Assembly (NCBI GenBank): GCA_963575745.1
Contig: CAUYUJ010014194.1
Location: 107,501 to 171,500, forward strand
Source: Prorocentrum cordatum
Taxonomy: Eukaryota; Sar; Dinophyceae; Prorocentrales; Prorocentraceae
DNA length: 64,000 nucleotides
Direction: 5' to 3'
The position numbers and the translations under genes were made by a program. The notes beneath the pieces are model-generated. The model was not told the origin of the DNA. It saw nothing but the letters and a program-made list of their open reading frames with translations, and did not search any database. Positions 8,494-60,945 of the stretch are shown here, piece by piece; within the stretch, counting starts at the first letter, position 1, and every line of letters starts with the position of its first letter.

Positions 8494-8626
8494 CCTAAAC
8501 CCTAAACCCTAAACCCTAAACCCTAAACCCTAAACCCTAAACCCTAAACCCTAACCCCTAAACCCTAAACCCTAACCCCTAAACCCTAAACCCTAAACCC
8601 TAAACCCTAAACCCTAAACCCTAACC
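8494..8626 (-). repeat. Interstitial telomeric repeat (TTTAGGG)n
   Basis: About 19 tandem copies of CCCTAAA on the plus strand (TTTAGGG on the minus) with two CCCCTAAA variants. This is the Arabidopsis-type telomere unit, also used by dinoflagellates. The block is internal and lies between decayed retroelement fragments (RT at 6-8 kb, endonuclease at 9-10.4 kb). It is therefore a fossil telomere junction, a repair patch or an assembly join rather than an active chromosome end. Confidence 0.95.
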
Positions 8627-11499: not shown

Positions 11500-12520
11500 C
11501 TCCTTGTAGCGCCACGAAGCGTGCGATGGGCGTGCCAAAATTTGCCCCGCGGGCGCATGCGAAAACAGCCGCTGGGGCCGTCGGTGGAATTCCCTATGGG
11601 GCCACGAAACGCGTGAGAGGTGTGTCGAATTAGGTGCGGTGGGCGCATGCGAACGCAACCATTGGGGCCTACGGGGCCGCGAAACGTGTGATGGGTGCGC
11701 CGAAATGGGCGCGGTGGGCGCAGGCGAACGCAACCACTGGCGTTTTCGGTGGAGCCCCTCTATGGGGCCACGACACGTGTGAGAAGCGCGCCGTTATTTT
11801 CGTGCATGCGGGCGGTGGCACTGGGGTCTTCGTTGGAGTTCCCTGCGGGGCCACGAAAAGTGTAAGGGGTGTGCCGGAATTGGTGTGCGTGACGCATGCG
11901 GGCGGTGGCACTGGGGCCTTCGGAAGAGCTCCTTGTGGGGCCACGTAAAATGTGATGGGGTGTGCCGGTATGGGTGCGCGTGACGCATGCGGGCGGTGGC
12001 ACTGGGGCCTTCGATGGAGCTCCCTATGAGGCCACGAAGCGTGTGATAGGGTGTGCCGAAATGGGTGTACGTGACGCATGTGGGCGGTGGCACTGGGGCC
12101 TTCGGTGGAGCTCCCCACGAGGCCACGAAACGTGTGAGGGGCATGCCGAATTTCATGCGCGTGACGCATGCAGGCGGTGGCACGGGGGCCTTCGGTGGAG
12201 CTCTGAGCGGGGCCGCGTAACGTGCGAGGGGTGTGCCGACATGGGCGTGCGTGACGCATGCGGGCGGTGGCACTGAGGCCTTCGGTGGAGCTCCCTATGG
12301 GGCCACGAAACGTGTGAGGGGTGTGCCGACATGGGTGTGCGTGACGCATGCGGGCGGTGCCACTGTGGCCTTCGGTGGAGCTCCCAATGGGGCCACGAAA
12401 CGTGCGAGGGGTGTGCAGAAATTGGTGCGGGTGACGCATGCGGTCGGTGCCACTGGGACCTTCGGTGGGGCTCCCTATGGGGCCACGAAGTGTGTGAGGG
12501 GTGTGCCAAAGTGAGGGGTG
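11500..12520. repeat. 90-bp minisatellite, about 12 units
   Basis: Units share GCCACGAAACGTGTGAGGGG, then GTGTGCCGAAATGGGTG, GTGACGCATGCGGGCGG, TGGCACTGGGGCC and TTCGGTGGAGCTCC. The GCCACGAA landmark recurs at 11511, 11601, 11767, 11850, 11940, 12031, 12122, 12302, 12392 and 12482, and as degraded GCCGCG forms at 11676 and 12212. Most spacings are 90-91 bp. Because 90 is divisible by three, the array leaves several frames open on both strands, each as a 30-residue repeat. These are not evidence of a gene. Confidence 0.92.
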
Positions 12521-42438: not shown

Positions 42439-42477
42439 CCAGGGAGCCAAAAAGGACTTGAGCCAAAATGGCTACGG
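42439..42477 (-). other. DinoSL followed by an older SL relict
   Basis: The minus strand from 42477 to 42457 matches the dinoflagellate spliced leader, with core GTAGCCATTTTGGCTCAAG. The following bases (42456-42439) read TCCTTTTTGGCTCCCTGG, which aligns with the SL 3' part and looks like an eroded earlier SL. The block abuts the GGA array at 42479. In dinoflagellates the SL is added to mRNAs by trans-splicing. A genomic copy at a gene's 5' end marks reintegrated cDNA. Confidence 0.92.
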
Positions 42478-49034: not shown

Positions 49035-49070
49035 CCGTGGCCCTCTGGCTCAAGGCCATCTCGGCCCCAG
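49035..49070 (+). other. Eroded tandem spliced-leader relict upstream of the channel gene
   Basis: 49035-49054 reads CCGTGGCCCTCTGGCTCAAG, which matches DinoSL with one gap and about three substitutions. 49055-49070 reads GCCATCTCGGCCCCAG, which matches the SL 3' part GCCATTTTGGCTCAAG at 12 of 16 positions. A full SL joined to an older truncated SL is the known signature of repeated mRNA recycling in dinoflagellates. It ends 49 bp before the channel ATG. Confidence 0.6.
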
Positions 49071-49119: not shown

Positions 49120-50785
49120 ATGGGGCGCACCCCACGAGCGCACGCGGTGTCATCTTCCTCACCGAGACTGCGGGCGTCGTCGCACAGCCCCAAGAACAGC
49201 CCCAGGGGCGGCTCCCAGCAGGGCGCACCCAGGTCGCCCAGAGACCGCCGCCAGGCGCCCGTGCCGCCCATCGCTGGGACCCGGCCCGATGCGGCGTGGC
49301 ACCGCGCGGCCGCGCGGCAGGAGCGGCAGCCCACCGACGGTGTGCTCGAGGATGACTTCGGCGAGGCCCTGTCGTTCCGGTCGCAGCTGGCCAAGTTCCA
49401 GCAGTACCTGCAGCCGGAGGAGCTCCTGGACGCCAGCGGCTCTGCCAGGCAGCCCCACCCGAGGCGATCCCCGAGGCCGGGCCAGCTCGAGCAGGCGCCC
49501 GCCTCCCTGCCGGGCCAGCTGGAGGTGGCCCTCGCGCGGCACGCGGCGGCGCTGCAGGAGGCCGCGGCGCAGCACCGGGCGGAGCTGACGCGGGCGGCCG
49601 AGCTGATCGGGCAGGAGCTCGGGCGCGCGGTGGGGGAGGCGCTGCTGCGCGGCCAGAGCTCGGCGGCGGCCTCCGCGCGCGGCGCGCCGCCCGCCGCGCG
49701 GGCCGGCGGGAGCGTGCCCCCGCAGGCGCGGCGGGTCGAGGAGGAGGCGGCGGCCGGCGGCCGGCGGGAGCGCGAGGCCCCGAAGCCCTCGCCGCCAAGC
49801 CCGTCGAAGCCCGTCGTGGCGATCGGGGGCCTCGCCGACGTCGATCCAGCCGGGAGCGATCCGCTCGGAGGCGGCGAAGCGCGAAGGGTGAGCAGCCGCG
49901 GCGGGAGCGACCCAGATGCCAGGGGAACCACAAAAGAATCGAGCTGTTCTGCGGCGAGCTACTCTGTCCTGGGCTACTCAGAACGGGGTGGGCTCGAGAG
50001 GTTGATCAGGGGTGTCACGGCAGGAATGAACGTGGAAGAGCCGCAACACCACGGACCTCTAGCGGAGTTTGTTCAAAGCAGGGCATTTGAAATCGGTTGC
50101 AACTTGGTCGTTCTCTTGAACTGTATATTCGTTGTCTGGGCGGCGAATCACTCAGTGGGGACTTCCGATGCAAATGACACGATTACGTCGGCTGAATTCG
50201 TTTTCACTGCATTTTATTGTGTTGAGCTCGTCTTGAAGCTCTGGGTCCACCGATTGTTCTTCTTCGCCAACGAAGACGCGGCATTCAATATATTGGACTT
50301 GGCTTTGGTGCTCATGGCTCTGTTCGAGATTTCGATATTACCACTCCTGCAAACAGGCTTGGGCGCAGTAGACCCTACGTTTTTGCGGATCCTCCGCATC
50401 TTCAAGGTCGTCAAAGTCCTCCGAATGATGCGCGCCCTCCACGCGTTCAAGGACATCCGCGTAATGATAGATTGTTTGGTGCACTCAGTCTGGCCCTTGG
50501 TTTGGGCGAGTGCACTGCTCGGATTCCTATCATCCCTCTTCGCCATTTACTTCGTCCAAAGTGTGGCTGCCGCTTTCTCGGATGGCAACCTGAGCCCCGC
50601 CCAAGAGAAAGAGTTGCTGGAGCACTTTGGACAGGTAGAGACAGCGGTGTTCTCGCTGATAGTGGCCACGACAGGAGGCAACGACTGGGCATATTATTAC
50701 GAGAGGCTGGAGCCATTAGGGGGCTTTGCGTGCGTTGTATACGTCGTCTACATAATGTTCATGTTCCTTGCGGTGATGAACATCG
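49120..50785 (+). pseudogene. Voltage-gated cation channel, N-terminal half (S1-S6), interrupted
   Basis: A single-domain ion-transport protein. Residues 1-310 are Pro/Arg/Ala-rich cytoplasmic sequence with a helical HAAALQEAAAQHRAELTRAA stretch. S1 is about 323-343 (GCNLVVLLNCIFVVWAANH), S2 357-377, S3 389-407, and S4 420-443 with spaced arginines and lysines (FLRILRIFKVVKVLRMMRAL). S5 is 459-482, the pore loop 506-524 (SLIVATTGGNDW) and S6 534-555 (VVYIMFMFLAVMNI). The gene is cut at base 50785 by a LINE, and the remainder resumes at 58206 in a compatible frame. The start ATG 49120 lies shortly after an SL relict. No introns are visible. The interrupted gene would give a channel lacking the end of S6 and its C-terminal regulatory region. 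Confidence 0.88.
50771..50785 (+). repeat. Target-site duplication, left copy (15 bp)
   Basis: CGGTGATGAACATCG is identical to 58191..58205. It encodes the VMNI residues of S6. Flanking bases differ on both sides. Confidence 0.85.
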
Positions 50786-53700
50786 ACGGTATTGTCACCA
50801 CCCTCCTGCACATCGTGCTCGGGGCCGTCGGGTCGGACCCCTTGTCCGAGACGAAGACTGCACCCCGCAGTCAAGGTGACGAACATCAAATATCTTGGGA
50901 AGAAGTAACACTCCTTGACCCTTGTGGCCGGGTAGTGAGTACTGCTGAACCAGATGTTCAGCATGACGGATCAGTTGAAGATGTGGATTCCTCAGACGAC
51001 CCATTGTTCGGAGGAGGAGTCAACCGACGTGGCGGGAAGAGTGCAGCCAAAGCGACGAAGGGGCGTCGTGAGGTAGCAGATCTTGCCAACCAGGTGACCC
51101 AGATCACCACAGTTTTGAATAAGTTGACAGAGAAGATGGGAGTGGAGTCTCAGGTGGCTGTGGGGAAGCCGCCAAAGAAGCGCACGCCCAAGAATACCCA
51201 AGTACCGCCAACACTTCAGAAGATTCGCGAATATCTGAAGTACATGCGGGTCAATCACATTAAGGTCACAGAGGAGCAAGTGCAGGACAAGCTGCGCGGC
51301 CTCCTCTCGAGAACCACGGCAGCATCGACGTGGTTGAACGGGGGACCTGCTGCCGAGAAGGCGCAGGATACGAAGTTGGTCGTGCACTCTCAGCCGTGGG
51401 GAACGGCGAAGATCGTCAAGGCCGCGAATATCAGGGCGACGACACTGGACGGCCCTGCTGTCATCACGTGCCAGTCGGCCACAGAGTACGAGCAGGCCAC
51501 ACAGTGGCTCGGCTCCATCAAAGAACAACCCAGTGGGATGACGTTCATTGTCTTCAATGCACCGTCGATTTTGGCTGGGGCTACTACTACGGAGGTCATG
51601 TGTGAGACATCTGTTGGGGTCAGACCACACACGGCTCAGATTATTATGACAGGGACCTCGCCACCGACTCGCCAGGGGCTACCCACGGGCTTGAAGGATG
51701 ATGAGGTCTCGACAGCACCACCCTTGGCCACGGCAGCACTACGGCTCACGATTGCGGAGGCGTTCGCTGACGATGCTACGTATGCGACGGTCAAGGAGAA
51801 ACCAGTGGCGATGGCGACGGTACTATTTCCTCAAGTGCTGGCAGCCAAGATTTTGAAGGTCAAGGGAGCAGTCAACTACCAGACAGAGTCGACGGCGATT
51901 ATCCTTGTGCGAGAGAATGATACAGAGGCATTATTGAAGTGGACCGCCCCGCCAGGGGTATTTTTGAATAGACAATCTAGTAAGCTGGTGCCAGTGTGGC
52001 ACAAACTACGCGAGGGCGAGAACATGATGACGTACTTCACCAGGGTGACTGCTGCAGCCGCCCAGGTCGAGGGCCGCTTGGTGTATCGCCCATCAGACAA
52101 TGCATCCTTAGGAATCTTATCCCAGAAGCCCATGGCGGCGGACATCCAACCTCGATGGTACTTGCAGAAGTGCCCTGAGCACTGGTCATCATCCCAGGAG
52201 GTCGAGGAGTGGGCTAAAGCCAGAGGGTTCCAGAATATTGACGGCATCACACGATCGAGCAAGAGAGCCTGGTTTCTACGAGCTGATCTGGACGGATTGG
52301 TCAAAGATCAGGTATGCACTTTCAAGTCGGGGATCATAGCTAGCCTAGCTGCGCCTCGCAGGACATCATCACGACCGCCTCCACAGGCCAAAGGAGCATC
52401 AGCGTGGGGGACTCCCGCGCCGGCCAGGGCTCCAGTGCAGGAGACGACAGCAGACGTGAAAGCAGAAGAACGAGACAAGGACGGCGACGTGGGCATGGCG
52501 AATGCCGAGGAAGGTGGACCGCAGCGGCCGCCGCAACCTGGCACAGCAGCAGCAGCCACAGCAGCAGCAGCAGCACCACCACAAGCTCCACAGGCGCCCA
52601 TGAGGCCTCCATGGGAGGCATATTTCAATGAGAAGTGCTGCGGGGGGGAAGGAGATTGTTTCTTCTTGATGGCCTCCCACGGCATACGAGCGAACCAATC
52701 CAAGCCAAAGCAGATGGCGGAGAAGGAGATGGGCCCTGGCGGCGCACTCCAAGCCAACTTGCGCATGATCGTGTCCGCCACCATGACGGATAACAAACGC
52801 TACCCCCAGGAGGAGGCCCGCAAGGCAGCCAAGACTGGGGAATGGGCCACATCGGCCATGGTAAGAGCAGCAGCGGTCACCACGAAGACGAATTTCTCCA
52901 TCTGGAAAAAGTCCCGCACTGGAACATGGACCTTGTATACCGCCCCAGCGGACATCAAGACCAAGCAGACGGTGTGGGCAACGTTGGTGGACAAGCACTA
53001 CAAACTTCTTCTTCCAAAGGCGGGTGTTGAGCTACCCCAGGAGATTTTGACACGATGGACGACTGCAGCATTCCCATGCCCAGCACGATTTACGGGGGGA
53101 GGAACGGGCAGCGAACCACACACACCGTCAGCGCGAGCTCCGTCGACCAGAGGAGCACGCAGCATGCTGGGCCTCAGCCCAGCTTCGACCAAGAAGACCA
53201 CGAGAGCCTTGAATGCAGCCAGGAGTATGCTGGGCCTCAGTCAGTCGGGGCGTTCCAAGACCTCGAAGGCGACGGCCAAGGCATCCTCGAAGCCAACGGC
53301 TAAACGACTGGCACGCGCTAGGAGTATTCTGGGACTATCGGTCGGCGATGAGGCAGTCGTTGATCCTCTCCCTGATCATGATCTACCAGCATGCCGTCCT
53401 GAGCGCTACAACTATTATTTTTGCGACTGCGGGTGGAAGCCCGAAGGAGCGCATGCACCCTGTCATGTTCTACAACACGCACGAGTACACTGGCGTGCCT
53501 GCAAGGGCACACCACCGCCCAAGGAGCCACCTGAGAATAGGGCAGCACGGCTGAGGGCGGTGACCAGCTTATCATACATGGACAAAGGTAAGCGAGACAA
53601 AGCTTGGAGGAGGTACACTACATGGTACCAGTCTCTACCCGAGGAGGTGAAGCCCAGCGTCTGCCAGATCACGGAGGACAACGTTGAAACGGTCAAGGAC

Positions 53701-54078
53701 GGCAAGCAGGGCAACACGGTATATTCTTGTACGAGATGCGGCAGACGTAAGACGTTGGCCAAGCATATCCTGAAGAAAGGTAACACCGCGTGGGCGGTCT
53801 GTGCCAGGCGACCAGGAGATCCACGCAAAGTCAAGGAGGCTACACACGACGTCTGGGCCAGGATGGTCAACAGGGACTACGCTGACCAGATCGAGGCGGC
53901 ACATAAGAAGACGCAGGAAAAGCAGAGACGCAGACAACGTACTCCAGAGATGAAGGCCAAGCGCCAAGAGTATTTCAAGAGGCAGAAGCTGATGCGGATG
54001 CTACGCAGACCTGCAGCAGTGGCTCCCAGCGAGGCGCCGGAGCAGGAGGAGGCAGCCGCAGCCTCAACATCGTCGTGA
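50786..54078 (+). CDS. LINE ORF1, coiled coil, OTU-like protease and zinc fingers
   Basis: The frame is continuous with the upstream channel frame. Within the element the first in-frame ATG is 51136, giving 980 codons, and the true start is unclear. Features numbered from channel residue 1: coiled coil about 655-680 (VADLANQVTQITTVLNKLTE); a Thr/Ala-rich middle; an OTU-like domain about 1170-1300 with GEGDCFFLMASHGI (Asp/Cys of the protease signature) and VDKHYKLLLPK (candidate catalytic His); three ARSMLGLS-type repeats (1348-1408); a FCDCG...C...H...H...C finger (about 1434-1462); and a SCTRCGRRKTLAKHILKK finger (about 1536-1562). The tail is Lys/Arg-rich and then acidic. It ends at TGA 54076, followed by C. 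Its probable role is RNA binding and particle assembly. The protease target is unknown. Confidence 0.8.
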
Positions 54079-54237
54079 CGGGATCCGCTCCTGGGAGGAG
54101 GAGGCCACCGAGCTGAAGGCCACGATGACTCCCAGGGGCAACCACTACCCAAGCGGCAGAAGAAAGCTTCGACAAATGTGAAAGCATCGAGGGCCTCATC
54201 TTCGGGGGCTACTACGGCTTCAAAGAAAGCAAGGGTC

Positions 54238-57200
54238 ATGGACATAAGTGCCGAGGACCCGTCCCAGAATTCAAAGGCTGTATTTGCAGACCAAGCAGTT
54301 TCTGAACTTGCTCCAAAGACTGATTTCTCTAGCTCTTCGAATTCAAAGACTGTATTTGCAGATCAATGTCTCGACTCCCACAGAGAGTCTAAAAGGCGGC
54401 GGTGTGGATTGGCTCAGCGGCGTCAGGACGCAAGTCCTGGGGAAGCCCCGAATGCGAGGGAACACCCCAGGCAGCGTCGCCACGTTTTGCAAGCCTGGGG
54501 AAGCCCCGAATGCGAGGGAACACCCCAGGCACGGGACGCCATGTCGACACCTTCGAGGACCACGACGAGACCGACGACGACACCAACACAGTTGGGGAGA
54601 TCATCGACTCAGAGCCCGAGATCCTCCAAACGCTTGAAGACAGGTATAGAAGATGATGTGGAATACCCTGACCATGGGGTAGATCCATCGGGGACAGGTG
54701 AAGGCCCCGCCCACATTGAACATGCCGAAGATCACGTCGACGAGACGGAGCCCCAGGGCTCAGAGAATGACCAGGGCGAGGGCCTCGATCGCCTGCAGGT
54801 AGCCACGATCAATGTCACCAGCATCTCGAAGGCCAGATTGTCAGAGATCCTGGACAATGTTGCAGACGACGTCGGCGTATTATGTCTCCAGGAGATACGA
54901 CTCCCTGACATGAGGCCGAGGTGGCTGATCAACTTCTGCGCTCGACGAGGGTGGGGTGCGGCATGCTCTAAGCCCCCTCCTCCTGGGGCGAGAGTGGCAA
55001 CGACGCAGGGCGGCTGTGCGATTTTGTGGCGACGGGCCATGGGAAAGATCAGCGTCATCAGAGACGATAAGCTCGACCATCGGATGGTTGGGATCAGAAC
55101 TACCAAAGCGACAATCTTGAGTATGTACGGGCCACAGTGGTACGATCGATCATGGTTTTCGTATGCTCTGGATTATGCCAAATCACTGGGACATCTGGGC
55201 CATCCCCTCTACATCATAGGGGACCTCAATTGGAAAGCTTCATATAATACTTTATTAGACATCGGATGGCAGCTGGACGTATCGCATGACCAATCTACTC
55301 AGGTGACCACGGCGATCGGTACAGCTCCGACAAGGGCGTTGTCCTGGGGAAACCCACAAGATGCCCCACCCAAGTACCTGGGCGCCAAGCTCTTGCCAGG
55401 GGTCCCCCACCACGCGATGGTCAAGTACCAGTTGGAGATACCATACATTACGATCCCACGGTACCGACTACACCACACGGCTTCCTTTCTACCTGTGGTC
55501 AACACCAAGACGGTTACGGCCGAGTACAAGAGCCTCTTGAAGGAATCGCTAGATGCAGTGTGTGCGGCTCCCCATATTAGTGGAGCCATCGACCTGGATC
55601 TCAATGACGACACGGATGTCCCGCTGGTCACGAGATGGCGCTACTGGCACGAGCGAGCAGAGGCAGCACTCAACATCGCAGTGGACAAAAAGTTGGTAGA
55701 GATTGACCGCCTACCTGAGAGGAGCAAGGGCTCCCAACCCACGCAGAGGCCAGCGGCACATGGACCTCGGTTTCGACCAGAACAAAGTATCGCACACAGG
55801 CGTCTTCTCCGCCTCCATCGTCGCTTCTCGGAGGCGCTCAGGCAGGGAACCTCAGCGATGGCTGAGATCTCTCCACGACACTTCACGGATATTGCCAGAG
55901 CGGCCTTCGAGGGAATTGTCAACATGAAAGCAGAAGGTGTTCCTTGTTATGCGGATTGTCTCCAGTGGCTGACATCAGCCATATCAGCGGAGAATATTAA
56001 ATTGCAACGTGAAGCTCAGAGATCCTGGAAAGAAGAATTTGCAGCGTGGTCTACAGAGGTGTATAAGGTGGCCACGCCTATGTTCAAGCAAGCACCCCCG
56101 GCATCCTCTTGCCACGTCTCGCAGTTCGCCGAGGAGTGGGAAGCACAGTGGAAGCCTGGGAATGTTGACAAACAAGCACACCTTCGAGCCTGGCAACATC
56201 GCGCTGATCAAGTTGAGTTCCCGAAGTCGACTTTGCATGAGATGTGGCTGCCAACGAAGGAACAGTTTGATGAAGCTTTGAGAAGTTCAAAGGGTTGTGC
56301 TGGATTGGATGGGTGGTCCTTTAGAGAGATCCGTATCCTGGCGGACCTGTATCCCGAGATCATCGCAGAACTCTACACGTTGTGGTGTGATACTTCCAGG
56401 TATTGCATTGAACATGAAGGCTGTCCACCAGGAGAACTCCACGATCTGGTATTCGCCTGGAGAGTGGCAGGTATGCCCAAGGGAGAGGATGACACGAGGC
56501 CTATCAGCGTGGGCAGCGTGTTGCTACGTATTTGGCTCAGAGCATTGGCATTTGCGGCTCCTGAGCCTCCAGAGGGCCAATGGGCTAATCGAAAGCACGT
56601 GTCAGTCACTCACGCGATCAGCCAGTGGTTGCGACATTGCGAATTGAGCTCGGACGGATGCGAATTGGATCTCAGCCGCGCTTATGATAATATCCTTCAT
56701 GAAATTGCGAGTGCTGCAATGGAGCGTTCACGTTACCCTCTGGCAGTACGATATGTATGCAAATCGGCATGGAAAGGCCCTCGTTGGTGCAGCCTCAACG
56801 GAGAACTGGCAGAGAGGGCAATATACGCAGACCGAGGTTTGCCACAAGGAGACAGCACAGCACCGGGGACCATGATCAGTACCCTCGTTCCTTGGATCAC
56901 GTCTGGCCCCTCGGGATGCTTTATGGATGACCGCTATATTGTTGGAGACAGCCCGCAGGGGCTGCTGGACGACATGGCTGAAACATCTACATTTGACAGT
57001 GACGTGGGTTTCAAAGCGAACAAAAAGAAAACGCAGGTATGGTCCACCATGGACGCGGAGCCTCAGCAGATCGAACACCTCGGTCTCCTCGCTTGTCCTA
57101 CCGACGCGACGTGGGCCATCATACCAAAAGACAAATGGGCCAAACTTCACACTGGGATTTCTATTCTTCAGTCTGTTCCTGGATCTTGCATGGTGAGATT

Positions 57201-58137
57201 GCGGCTGGCCTACACATATCTAAGACCTCTGTGGACGTGGGGAGCCCCTATCGTGACACCCCCACCGACGGCGATGGCAAAGCTTTTGGCGAGAGCAGTT
57301 TGGCGCACCCAGAACACATGGTGGTGCCTGGGCAGATGGTGGTGCCAGAACATCATGCTCCACCCAGTCTATTCTTGCAGCCTCTTCGCCTTCAGACGTT
57401 TACACGACGAAAAGCTGATTTGGTCATCTTTCCTGGAGAACTCGATCCAAGTCCACGCCCGAACGTTGGGGTTGGAGTATATACGATTTTCAGAAGAACG
57501 TGGTGTTTTACTGGAAGTCTCATCTATGGACGACTTCAGAGTATTGCAGATTGTGGAAGGTTTGGCGGACGCTCAGCTCAGATTTTGGACACACTCCAAG
57601 CGCGCACAACATGTCCTTCGGGTCATTGCCAGGATCAGGTGCCTTCAAATTGTGGAGCCCCGCAGGAAAGACTCAGAGGAGGTCGAATCGGTGGACGTCG
57701 ACGCCTGCAGCAACAAAGTTTTCACAAAGTGGTTTCATTCATTGAGTATTGCCGAGAAGTTCAGCCTCTCCGTGTTTCGCTCAGGGGCAGCTTCATCGGA
57801 GACACGTCGACAGACAGGGCTACCTTGCCCACACTGCGGCCATCTGTGGCCATCCATCAGACATCAGGTCGTGGAGTGCCCACACTGGGATGGGCTTCGA
57901 GCTGATCTTTCATCTAAGTTTGTTCTGCCGCCCACTTTCTGGACCAGCCTCCCGCGGGTCTCAGCCAAGAGTGGGTGGATAACGTATGCGGCAGACCCTG
58001 CATCAAATGTCAGAAGGGCTACCATGCTGAGGGCCATCTGTGAGATGGGAATCGGCATCATTGGTAGTGGACTGGAAGGACGACTTCATGATCCTGCACC
58101 GCCTCCCGTGCGGCGCAGAGTTCGTGTTGCTGCGTAA
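54238..58137 (+). CDS. LINE ORF2: APE endonuclease and reverse transcriptase, 1299 aa
   Basis: The start ATG 54238 is the first in frame. The frame is open back to the ORF1 stop at 54078, so readthrough is possible. The endonuclease (residues about 185-400) has VATINVTSISKARL, VLCLQEIRLP (catalytic Glu), GGCAILWRR, ILSMYGP, PLYIIGDLNWKA (GDxN) and GVPHHAMVKY (terminal His region). The RT (about 680-950) has GCAGLDGWSFREI, GMPKGEDDTRPISVGSVL, CELDLSRAYDNI (motif A), RGLPQGDSTAPGTM (motif B), GCFMDDRYIVG (motif C, FMDD) and GFKANKKKTQVW (motif D). A C-terminal CPHCGHLW...H...C finger lies at about 1196-1220. All expected catalytic residues are present and the length is normal for a LINE, so it may be active. 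Confidence 0.9.
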   Translation: MDISAEDPSQNSKAVFADQAVSELAPKTDFSSSSNSKTVFADQCLDSHRESKRRRCGLAQRRQDASPGEAPNAREHPRQRRHVLQAWGSPECEGTPQARDAMSTPSRTTTRPTTTPTQLGRSSTQSPRSSKRLKTGIEDDVEYPDHGVDPSGTGEGPAHIEHAEDHVDETEPQGSENDQGEGLDRLQVATINVTSISKARLSEILDNVADDVGVLCLQEIRLPDMRPRWLINFCARRGWGAACSKPPPPGARVATTQGGCAILWRRAMGKISVIRDDKLDHRMVGIRTTKATILSMYGPQWYDRSWFSYALDYAKSLGHLGHPLYIIGDLNWKASYNTLLDIGWQLDVSHDQSTQVTTAIGTAPTRALSWGNPQDAPPKYLGAKLLPGVPHHAMVKYQLEIPYITIPRYRLHHTASFLPVVNTKTVTAEYKSLLKESLDAVCAAPHISGAIDLDLNDDTDVPLVTRWRYWHERAEAALNIAVDKKLVEIDRLPERSKGSQPTQRPAAHGPRFRPEQSIAHRRLLRLHRRFSEALRQGTSAMAEISPRHFTDIARAAFEGIVNMKAEGVPCYADCLQWLTSAISAENIKLQREAQRSWKEEFAAWSTEVYKVATPMFKQAPPASSCHVSQFAEEWEAQWKPGNVDKQAHLRAWQHRADQVEFPKSTLHEMWLPTKEQFDEALRSSKGCAGLDGWSFREIRILADLYPEIIAELYTLWCDTSRYCIEHEGCPPGELHDLVFAWRVAGMPKGEDDTRPISVGSVLLRIWLRALAFAAPEPPEGQWANRKHVSVTHAISQWLRHCELSSDGCELDLSRAYDNILHEIASAAMERSRYPLAVRYVCKSAWKGPRWCSLNGELAERAIYADRGLPQGDSTAPGTMISTLVPWITSGPSGCFMDDRYIVGDSPQGLLDDMAETSTFDSDVGFKANKKKTQVWSTMDAEPQQIEHLGLLACPTDATWAIIPKDKWAKLHTGISILQSVPGSCMVRLRLAYTYLRPLWTWGAPIVTPPPTAMAKLLARAVWRTQNTWWCLGRWWCQNIMLHPVYSCSLFAFRRLHDEKLIWSSFLENSIQVHARTLGLEYIRFSEERGVLLEVSSMDDFRVLQIVEGLADAQLRFWTHSKRAQHVLRVIARIRCLQIVEPRRKDSEEVESVDVDACSNKVFTKWFHSLSIAEKFSLSVFRSGAASSETRRQTGLPCPHCGHLWPSIRHQVVECPHWDGLRADLSSKFVLPPTFWTSLPRVSAKSGWITYAADPASNVRRATMLRAICEMGIGIIGSGLEGRLHDPAPPPVRRRVRVAA
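54436..54531 (+). repeat. 38-bp direct repeat within the ORF2 5' region
   Basis: Two identical copies (54436-54473 and 54494-54531) begin CCTGGGGAAGCCCCGAATGC and end AACACCCCAGGCA, so each carries a short inverted pair CCTGGGG/CCCCAGG. Just upstream, a GAATTCAAAG...TGTATTTGCAGA segment is also duplicated (54268 and 54341), encoding NSK(A/T)VFADQ twice. Confidence 0.8.
54644..54687 (+). repeat. Inverted repeat arm shared with the LINE 3' end
   Basis: GTATAGAAGATGATGTGGAA then TACCCTGACCATGGGGTAGATCCA matches the reverse complement of 58148-58191 with one mismatch in 44 bases. Confidence 0.9.
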
Positions 58138-58147
58138 CTACCACGCG

Positions 58148-58191
58148 TGGATCTACCCCATGGTCAGGGTATTCCACCTCATCTTCTATAC
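58148..58191 (-). repeat. Inverted repeat arm at the LINE 3' end
   Basis: The partner of 54644..54687. It occupies the last bases of the element before the right target-site copy, where a 3' UTR end or poly(A) would be expected. Confidence 0.9.
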
Positions 58192-58205
58192 GGTGATGAA
58201 CATCG
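58191..58205 (+). repeat. Target-site duplication, right copy (15 bp)
   Basis: Identical to 50771..50785. Confidence 0.85.
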
Positions 58206-58720
58206 TTACGAGCGTGTTTCTGGACAAAGCGATGGAGATCGCCAAGCCATGCTCGGAGAACGAGGTACTGGACAAGTGCCACTCGGACCTGCACGACGCA
58301 GACGAGCTTATCCGCATGGTGTCTGGCATGCGCGAGGATGACCAAGACACCATCACCTTCGGCGAGTTCGTTGGCTACATGAACGAGCGAGAGTTCCGGA
58401 AGCATTTCGATGCACGGGGCCTGACCCAAAAGGACACGAGGATGCTGTTCAAGATGCTCACCTCCTACAACTCCGGCACGGTTTGCCAGGGCGGCGAGAA
58501 GAGGGTCCAGCTCTCCGCCTTCCTGGCGGGCTGCATGCGGCTGAAGGGGGAGGCGTCCAGCATGGACGTGTACGCCGTCAGCTGCGGGCTGCACTTCGTG
58601 CGCGCAGCCCAGGCCGAGTTCGGCGCCTGGGCGGAGGGGCAGTTCGCGGAGCTCAGGGCCCGCCTGGAGGACACGGCGGCCCTGACCCGCGCCCCGGGCC
58701 GCGGGCCTCCTGGGAGCTGA
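58206..58720 (+). pseudogene. Voltage-gated cation channel, C-terminal half
   Basis: Reading from the right target-site copy, the sequence continues S6 (VMNIVTSVFLDKAMEIAKP), the classic end of a Ca/Na-channel S6 helix. A cytoplasmic tail follows with an EF-hand-like helix-loop-helix region (VSGMREDDQDTITFGEFVGY, with degenerate Ca ligands) and a second helical stretch (SSMDVYAVSCGLHFVRAAQA). It ends at TGA 58718. Joined to the first half without the LINE and one repeat copy, the frame is 2178 bases (726 codons) with no interruption. This piece has no start codon of its own in host sequence. An ATG-started frame from 58040 runs into it from LINE sequence. Confidence 0.85.
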
Positions 58721-60945
58721 GGGCGCCCCGTGCGGCTCGGTCGCAGCCCCACGACTGCCCGGCGAGCGGCGCCCCCTATGGGAAGCGGCAGCCGACCGAG
58801 GACAGGAGGGGGAGGGCGGGGGGGAGGGGGGAGGGGCGGCGCTTGTTTTCCACCGCCAGCAGCCTGTCCCCCGGGCTTGTGCCTCGTTGTTTGCCTGGGA
58901 AGCTGCTCGGAGCTTGGCGCCGCAAGGGCGACTCCCTCCGTAGCACTCGCTCTGGCCGCTTGTTCACTCTGGATTGGGCGGCGCCTAGGTGCGACTGCTT
59001 GCGAATGTGGAGCATTTTGCTCGGTGCACGTGCACCGCACGCTTCGTGTGCAACTAGCTTTGTACCGCCGTCCCGGACATCGCATGTCGCCGCCAGACCG
59101 TTGTCGCGCGGCCGCCGACCCCCCCAAAAATATCCCCACCACCCCATCCAGAAACGATGCCCATGAGAGTTGTTTGGATGAAGAGGGATGTTGAAGGAGG
59201 GTAAGAGGAATGAGAAGGAGCAGGGAGAGAAAGATGGCCAGGAGGAGGAGGAGGAGGAGGAGGAAGGGGAAAGGAGTGGGGGCTATCTTGAGGCATCTTG
59301 GAGGCTATCAGGGGCCATCTCGGTACCAACTCGGGCCCTGACAGGCTTTGGATGGGGGGGGGGCGGACGGGCCCTGCTAAACAACTGGGCATGTTGATAC
59401 GGTTCGGGTGCCCCGCGATCATTTTAAAAGTGCAAGCCCGCCGTCCCTGTCAACGGCCGGTTTGAAGTACAGCACGCGTTGCGGCAACATCTCGGGCCAT
59501 GCGCGGGCGCCGATTTCTGTTGGCCTTTCTACTTCGCATGGACGGTGGAGGTGCGTTGGCACGCGCGGCCATGCATCGCGGGCGCCGCACCTCGGGCTGG
59601 CCTGTGCTGTGCTTCCCGACGCACGTCGCTGCCGGCCACTGTTCTCGGAGGCGCACAGAACCCCCACCCTGACGCGTCGATTCGTGAATGGTCCGTTTTC
59701 GGTCCTCGAGAGGGCGCCGCGGCCGTCATTTTCCAGGCTTGGGCCCGCCAGGTTTGGGCCCGAGGTCGTTTTCACGGATCCACGCTTTGCCAAAGGGGCT
59801 TCTGTGCATCCCCGATGCTCGTGCTGCGACTTGGCTGCTGCATCTGTGTTGGGAGCGCGGCCGGCTGCTGCCACGACGGTCACCGCTGCCTCGGTCGGCG
59901 GCCCCTGCCCGCTCAACGCGGAACTCTTCCACGTCTGAGCGCTCTCCCCTCTCTCTCCCCTCGCGCGGCCGCTCTCGTCTTCCTCCCCCCCCCCTCGATG
60001 GAGCGTGATGGGAATCGCACGAGGTGACGAAACTCCTAACTGTCTTGACCACTTCGTTTTTCGTTGCCTTTTTTTGTATGAGCTGCCAACATTTCGCCGC
60101 GCCGCTTCGTTTTTCGTAATCGTTGCTACAACGAAGTAACTTCTTGCAGGCGGCACTCGCTGTTCGTTTTCCAGCTCGCATGTATGTTTGCGCTTCATTT
60201 TCAGCGCCGGAGAGGTAGCATGTTTGAGAGCTGTGAGCTATTGTCGATACGAGATGGATGCCAGCTAGGGCATGATCGCAGCGCAGTCGCGGCAGGAAGC
60301 AGTGCAGCGACGAAAGCAAAGCCTTGCGCAAAAAGTGGGAGGACGGATAAGTTATCTATCACACAATCCGCGGACCCCCGCATCTCACAATCTTCAAGGC
60401 CGTCATGACGTACGGCGCTTCGCGTACAATAGCAGCCGAAGCCGACCCCGCGCTGAAGCCTAAGTCCGAGAAGTTGTTGACCGACATGCGCTCGTTGTGG
60501 GACGAGCGGCTCACCAATAACAGTATGGAGGATGTCGCTCGAGCTGTGCGGTACCTCAGGGTCCGCATCCATCGCAATAGTGAGGGACAGCCCCAAACAT
60601 GCACCTTTCTCTTCGGGATGGGCTGCTTCGGTAACAAATCATGGGAGCCCGATGTGCCTCCTGATTCCGGCTTCAGCGCCGGTTCGCGTCTGCCAGCGCC
60701 TGGGAGTCGACGAGACAACGCCGATGTGGCGTCGGTCAGCGCCGAGTGGCGTCGATCTAGCGTCGATTAGCGTCGACTGGGCGTCGATCAGCATCGATTC
60801 GCAAGAGCCGACAAGATGGTTCCCGCGAGCTGCCACCGAGGGCCGCCACGACGCACTGGCCCTGTCGTGGGCCCGACGACCCAGGAGCGTTGAGCCTCCG
60901 CGAGGCAGCGTGGGCAGCACGAGTCGTGGGACCCCCCCCTGGCGC
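58721..60945. other. Channel 3' flank; no supported gene
   Basis: GC-rich DNA with a short GGA array near 59240. Bases 60030-60240 have lower GC and duplicated CGTTTTTCGT words. A 121-codon frame at 60405-60770 (starting MTYGASRTIAAEADPALKPK) has some coding character but no recognised domain. Bases 60720-60800 contain GCGTCGATCAGC-type repeats. Confidence 0.4.

Follow-up and report, generated by a model that had tools for sequence, protein, structure and literature searches.

The genome of the dinoflagellate Prorocentrum cordatum contains a voltage-gated channel gene whose segment S6 is split by a full-length long interspersed nuclear element (LINE), and a search of the whole assembly (4.13 Gb, 21,875 contigs) demonstrates that this element belongs to a target-specific LINE family, here called the S6 family, whose copies share one target in fixed register. 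The gene lies in a stretch of 64,000 nucleotides (the window, to which all positions below refer). An initial annotation, made by reading the letters and the open reading frames (ORFs) of the window, had described a LINE insertion at this place; beyond it, the site proves to fit the preferred target of the element, and the frame of the channel is also that of the LINE. Since the target can be read as the codons of a conserved S6 signature, and two sister families have targets readable as other protein motifs, it is probable that these LINEs home to the codons of conserved protein motifs, as set out below.

The left part of the interrupted gene (49120-50785, plus strand; 555 aa), which extends from the N-terminal region through S1 and into S6, most of which it includes, matched the Pfam domain Ion_trans (E = 2.1e-20, residues 321-555; the cut-off for window proteins was E <= 0.01), in agreement with its annotation as S1-S6 of a voltage-gated channel, and aligned with protein P0011 at 91% over 555 aa. 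The right part (58206-58721, plus strand) contains the end of S6, as had been proposed, and a C-terminal tail (P0011, 97% over 124 aa), but the EF-hand-like nature ascribed to this tail was not borne out, as no EF-hand was detected by Pfam at this cut-off in the right half of the window copy. Among solved structures, those closest in sequence are T-type calcium channels. The gene resembles Cav/Nav-type voltage-gated cation channels in having an Ion_trans domain, whereas it encodes a single-domain protist channel, which is now split.

A perfect 15-bp repeat, CGGTGATGAACATCG, was found as claimed at 50771-50785, where it encodes A-V-M-N-I, and at 58191-58205 (both plus strand), the left and right copies of a target site duplication. 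No third site with up to two mismatches is present in the window, and shuffled sequences gave 0.11 matches on average and two matches in one case of 100. Removal of 50786-58205 leaves the predicted open frame, 726 codons followed by a stop. All of P0011-P0015, the five closest relatives found, read AVMNIV across the junction without interruption; two of them, with 96% and 80% identity over the region used as query, are from P. cordatum, and the other three are more distant. In addition, contig C59 carries a paralogue with the uninterrupted DNA ...CTTGCGGTGATGAACATCGTTACGAGCGTG..., in which the 15-bp target is present once and which is 97.0% (1,052 bp) and 98.4% (243 bp) identical to the two flanks in the window. 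Because this paralogue has an empty site and other copies of the element share its ends, the annotation as a LINE that entered S6 and duplicated 15 bp there can be accepted. It could also rightly be called young, since the duplication is perfect and none of the 120 residues compared after the junction shows a change private to the window copy. P0011 has four private changes after the junction (two in its annotated end) and two before it, in S1-S6, where the window copy has four.

The split gene is an intronless, spliced leader (SL)-tagged retrocopy of the C59 gene. Thus, of two options raised at first for the host gene, that it is one of several gene copies proved correct, and hemizygosity is unneeded, because the published assembly is described as haploid in the available part of PMC10449503. 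The parent has at least two exons, whereas the window copy is contiguous. At the position of the parent's likely trans-splice acceptor, ...GCTCAG/GCCATCTCGG, a decayed dinoflagellate spliced leader (DinoSL) stands in the window copy instead, and the 5' untranslated region (UTR) after it is that of the parent. This relic (49035-49054, plus strand; 85-66 nt upstream of the channel ATG) differs from CCGTAGCCATTTTGGCTCAAG by three substitutions and one deletion and is weak by itself, a match with up to four edits being present in 3 of 20 shuffled windows; it is the missing intron, together with the place where the junction lies, that identifies the gene as a DinoSL retrogene. According to the available part of PMC6050394, DinoSL relics of dinoflagellate retrogenes are located 50-100 nt before the ATG, a range that includes the 66-85 nt observed here. 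The window gene is similar to those retrogenes in being intronless with a relic before its ATG, although its relic is decayed. A perfect 21-nt DinoSL was also detected at 42457-42477 on the minus strand, which perhaps marks another, more recent retrogene.

The element (50786-58190, plus strand; 7405 bp, without poly(A)) encodes reverse transcriptase and endonuclease, and its last 300 bp are absent from its 5' end (no long terminal repeat, LTR); it is a non-LTR retrotransposon. When its first 815 bp were used as a genome query, 24 of the 25 matches began at base 1 and one at base 17, and the last 300 bp gave 37 matches of at least 297 bp and three short ones. A 5'-end pattern recovered 24 copies from the genome, compared with none for the reversed control. 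Among 20 copies compared, the 5' end ACGGTAT was present in all and the 3' end CTTCTATA in 18, the exceptions being one diverged end and one running into N. Target duplications in 24 copies were exact over 15 bp in 21, had one mismatch in one, measured 13 bp with one mismatch in another and were unreadable in the last. Of the other copies examined, the most similar is 97.8% identical. On contig C9990, three copies stand head to tail, spaced by one common 15-bp target, an arrangement expected if the duplication stays a target. A 5'-truncated element, which might have accounted for an ORF1 without ATG, is ruled out by the 24 of 25 matches that start at base 1 with differing flanks beyond.

The shared target was defined from 35 3' flanks, i.e., the 37 ends minus the two inner junctions of C9990. 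By eye, a motif stands in fixed register in 32 of them and in two more after a slide of 2-4 nt, while the remaining one lies inside LINE sequence. In empty sites reconstructed from the flanks for 17 insertions, the motif was sharp and covered about -16 to +6 relative to the cut. The consensus of about 22 bp, GCnnTnnTnAAYRTCG^TYACTGG, occurs in one orientation and, read as codons, gives A-x-[LM]-N-[VI]-V-T-G, the channel S6 signature. Its downstream part in the window is TTACGAGCGT (58206-58215, plus strand), corresponding to TYACTGGNGT in the target logos. A matrix was also built from 17 non-channel sites, excluding six channel or possible-channel sites, one duplicate locus and three odd junctions and reducing each of two repeat groups to one member. 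These sites alone still show the motif, with about 0.8 bits or more at -15, -12, -9, -7, -6, -3, -2, -1, 0 and +2 to +6, and values near background at -14, -13, -10 and -8.

Insertions in channel S6 were confirmed in four cases: the window, C14436, C16582 and C4267. In C14436, the left flank matched Ion_trans (1.7e-23), and the EF-hand match of the right flank was below the Pfam cut-off. The C16582 insertion was recognized by tblastn with P0017 (E = 3.5e-12) and has an uninterrupted relative in C13315, whose flanks are 93.9% and 82.3% identical. The C4267 insertion was assigned from its right flank only, the 75 bp shown being identical to a channel S6 that is uninterrupted and lies on the same contig at a distance of about 9 kb (channel match 1.6e-33). 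The flank in C13798 reads IVFIQIAVLNI/VTGM when its frame is followed by hand and probably represents another S6 insertion, with no channel match by tblastn. The C9990 insertion reads SLLNVVTGIL, without wider channel homology.

When the non-channel matrix was applied to channel genes, 12 of 16 scored S6 stretches ranked in the top 0.1% of 113,080 background window positions. A pattern of the downstream motif had 38 exact matches in the genome versus 7 in the control. Among the first 20 of these 38, five were channel S6, 11 belonged to one other repeated coding sequence and four were single cases. The pattern had not included the upstream part of the matrix, and this part scored 2.1 to 4.0 at the five channel S6 sites and -0.7 to -7.2 at the other 15. 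The repeated coding sequence reads ...DQNIVTGV[PS]DD... and carries the downstream motif at loci L143, L144, L149-L152, L156-L158, L161 and L162; by eye, it holds none of the 35 LINE flanks.

A query with part of P0002 gave at least 111 matches in several LINE families. Their 3' ends numbered seven for F1, four for F2, six for F3 and two for F4 at first, and then 13 for F1 and seven for F3, two without the expected end being dropped. The 20 F1 flanks (a few of which fit poorly) share TACAAC NNN RTG WTC RAC G, readable as the PPR motif YNx[MV][FI][DN]A, and the 11 F3 flanks share TGY GGN NNN TGY TGG GCN, readable as the papain motif CGxCWA. Their information contents were 17.4 bits for F1 and 18.8 bits for F3, compared with at most 8.7 and 12.4 bits, respectively, in 20 shuffled sets each, for which fewer iterations were run. 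One F1 flank is a PPR gene (PPR_2, 6.6e-34) and one F3 flank a papain exon (2.3e-10). The target in the four F2 flanks is similar to that of F3, and the two 3' ends of F4 had no common end.

Taken together with the four channel insertions, one PPR gene and one papain gene thus carry an insertion of the family in question. We propose that a LINE with an apurinic-type endonuclease entered S6 of the SL-tagged channel retrogene by target-primed reverse transcription, and that its target preference matches the codons of the S6 signature, on which it probably evolved. A degree of tolerance to synonymous substitutions may exist, comparable to that of homing endonucleases, and would allow the various members of the large channel gene family to serve as targets; in the sister LINEs, the preference would likewise match the codons for the PPR motif or for the active site of papain. 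Furthermore, the fixed codon phase of the cut may allow ORF1 to be translated as an extension of the host protein. Sequence comparison establishes the fixed ends, the 15-bp duplications, the single orientation to a shared target and the four insertions in channel S6, and it suggests the codon fit; the explanation as a whole appears probable to us.

An alternative is that these are simply sequence-preferring LINEs that recognize a DNA motif irrespective of any coding meaning, the likeness to S6, PPR and papain being a by-product; gene families would then receive insertions because they contain the motif, just as satellites do. Several observations support it and weigh against recognition of codons. 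Most surviving insertions of the S6 family are located outside channels (four confirmed and one or two possible channel cases among 35), and 7 of the 35 sites lie in one satellite scoring 12.7-21.2, which overlaps the 12.1-26.9 of the channel sites; the satellite was considered as a possible primary target. The downstream motif is more frequent in the other coding repeat than in channels (11 versus 5 of 20). The codon fit is mixed: information at codon positions 1, 2 and 3 of the S6 family is 0.92, 1.27 and 0.55 bits, a contrast attained by 161 of 10,000 position permutations, yet third positions -2 and +4 are strong (1.07 and 1.14 bits), which makes third-position tolerance uneven, and in F1 (about 0.68, 1.36 and 0.65 bits) the third position is about equal to the first. 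Among the long flanks of the sister families, only two of 17 (seven F1, four F2 and six F3) looked like target-family genes, Pfam having been run on these two alone. The channel evidence is also reduced in several respects: 18 channel gene stretches were tried, of which two ended short of the motif; four of those scored ranked at 0.15%, 1.0%, 16% and 24%; the 12 top stretches include two close kin of the window gene and two with the same sequence; and the flank pieces of C16582 (88 aa) and C4267 (77 aa) had no channel match in Pfam. Because synonymous tolerance is partial and most insertions are outside channel genes, a plain DNA motif is a possible reading. On the other hand, three motifs would each have to match a conserved protein signature by chance, the upstream preference is met by channel S6 alone among the 20 genomic matches, and channel, PPR and papain genes do carry insertions. 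Moreover, the weakest positions of F3 (codon positions 1, 2 and 3 with about 1.23, 1.12 and 0.61 bits) are the synonymous and free ones, and these averages indicate synonymous tolerance in F3 and not clearly in F1. The DNA-motif alternative is therefore regarded as rather unlikely, though it deserves serious attention. The small number of insertions in the gene families might be due either to selection against broken genes or to a codon-blind DNA preference.

From 49120 to 58137, the window reads in one frame with a single TGA (followed by CGG) at 54076. The ORF1 frame (50788-54078, plus strand) is open from element base 3, has its first ATG at 51136 and ends with this TGA CGG, and ORF2 (54079-58137, plus strand), in the same frame, encodes an apurinic-type endonuclease and a reverse transcriptase (Exo_endo_phos 1.5e-7, RVT_1 8e-14), with ten relatives at 32-42% identity. 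The initial statement that the LINE ORFs are intact thus holds for the open frame, and fails with regard to the ATG missing before 51136 and the single TGA. Among 19 full copies, no stop interrupts the first 115 codons counted from element base 3, compared with 105 and 108 stops in the other frames. Over the 116 codons before the usual first Met, the ratio of nonsynonymous to synonymous substitution rates (dN/dS) is 0.216, versus 1.47 and 1.30 off frame; elsewhere it is 0.104 (rest of ORF1), 0.065 (endonuclease and reverse transcriptase) and 0.450 (stretch after the TGA). The ORF1 frame is under purifying selection from its first bases. The TGA is retained in 15 of 19 copies, and both parts are otherwise open to the end in 14 of 19. 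In F1, the target codons TAC AAC enter the element in the ORF1 frame (one copy was translated, and a second frame is also open), so that cut phase equals ORF phase in two families, with a chance expectation of 1 in 9. Because the cut phase is fixed, ORF1 continues the S6 frame and the frame is under purifying selection, it is plausible that translation of the interrupted host protein runs on into ORF1 and adds it at the C-terminus, at least where a copy has no ATG at this place; an in-frame ATG at codon 1, present in 4 of 19 full copies and 5 of 24 overall, argues against this.

The remaining explanations fare much worse. If the element were spliced out as an intron, the channel could still be made, and dinoflagellates do have introners, some having introns with short direct repeats (available part of PMC11453091). 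However, none of the 16 possible junctions within the duplication yields an AG acceptor, GT/GC/GA-AG borders were not found there, and an insertion of this length with two ORFs looks like a typical autonomous LINE, which makes a spliceosomal intron or introner very improbable. An untargeted LINE that fell into S6 by chance, the implicit view of the initial annotation, is something a single window cannot discriminate; with the common target in the flanks of other copies and re-insertion at the same 15 bp contradicting it, this idea is hardly credible. Least of all can the 15-bp repeat represent two homologous S6 segments of different channels, for although the 3' end of the element (58091-58190) is hydrophobic and S6-like in the host frame, leading into VMNIVTSVFL (perhaps by chance), other copies of the LINE end in these bases too, and only one S6 is present in the relatives and in the parent.

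RNA genes and simple repeats are known to serve as targets of specific LINEs, and homing endonucleases are known to target conserved coding sequence and to tolerate synonymous positions. The S6 family is similar to R1/Tx1-clade and Keno target-specific non-LTR retrotransposons with apurinic-type endonuclease in its fixed-register target, its duplication and its multicopy target, but its targets, and those of its sisters, read as codons of conserved protein motifs. In contrast to homing endonucleases, the enzyme here is part of a LINE, which copies itself via RNA, inserts in several members of the gene family and is not spliced out. Utopia, a member of the NeSL clade inserting in U2 small nuclear RNA genes, is likewise a target-specific LINE and shares further traits described in the available part of PMC4640811, namely weakened specificity in some hosts, occasional tandem insertion and a cysteine protease domain in one member, whereas it has a restriction-like endonuclease and an RNA-gene target. 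No LINE targeting protein-motif codons was found in the literature covered, including the available parts of PMC11453091, PMC10449503, PMC12014239, PMC6050394 and PMC4640811, with subscription papers and Repbase reports mostly outside this scope. If the proposal is correct, LINEs would have found a new niche in the codons of conserved protein motifs, as such a target would be hard to mutate away, would recur across a gene family and would differ between sister LINEs. Because the target differs between sisters, specificity may have been switched among relatives, which would provide a natural series for how a LINE endonuclease gains a long target. It might also be one reason for broken members in large dinoflagellate gene families.

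An OTU-like cysteine protease region is predicted in ORF1 (52585-53100, plus strand) by a structure model of low confidence (pLDDT 48.9). The best 50 of its 221 PDB matches were OTU-type proteases, some of which we take to be so from their names, with a best E of 5e-4 and TM scores of at most 0.51; no OTU profile matched ORF1 in Pfam. The region can be aligned with P0002 and P0003. The sequence DPL[FL]GGG was observed at 50998, early in ORF1, and at 54082, right after the TGA, as well as at residue 9 of P0006 and residue 116 of P0002 and P0003, and it is perhaps a candidate processing site for the protease. A much broader scheme can be imagined, in which a dinoflagellate LINE clade would recognize the DNA of the channel S6, PPR helix and papain active-site motifs with codon-degenerate tolerance and enter it in a constant codon phase, a host start would drive the ORF1 fusion, a leaky UGA would precede ORF2 and the OTU-like protease would cut the polyprotein at DPLxGGG; drawn from sequence features, this combination is tentative and seems doubtful as a whole.

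Other features of the element include an inverted copy (98% match) of its last 43 bp (58148-58190) inside ORF2 at 54645-54687 on the minus strand. Its 3' UTR (58138-58190, plus strand) has two predicted hairpins and the terminus CTTCTATA and is similar in the listed copies; the fold of 58131-58190 had a z-score of -2.83, with 1 of 200 shuffles equally stable. Two near-identical hairpins CCTGGGG...CCCCAGG (fold z -3.88) are located at 54425-54530 between ORF1 and the endonuclease. Folding of the element's 5' end gave z-scores of -2.84 (100 nt) and -1.75 (145 nt), and a search of Rfam gave no known ribozyme there (one snoRNA match, E = 1.2). Searches of proteins with ORF1, of viral contigs and of plasmid records gave no informative match. 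Elsewhere in the window, a 75/90-bp satellite at 11593-12507 resembles by eye the one in which 7 of the 35 LINE sites are located, and an interstitial (CCTAAAC)n telomere-type array was found at 8494-8624.

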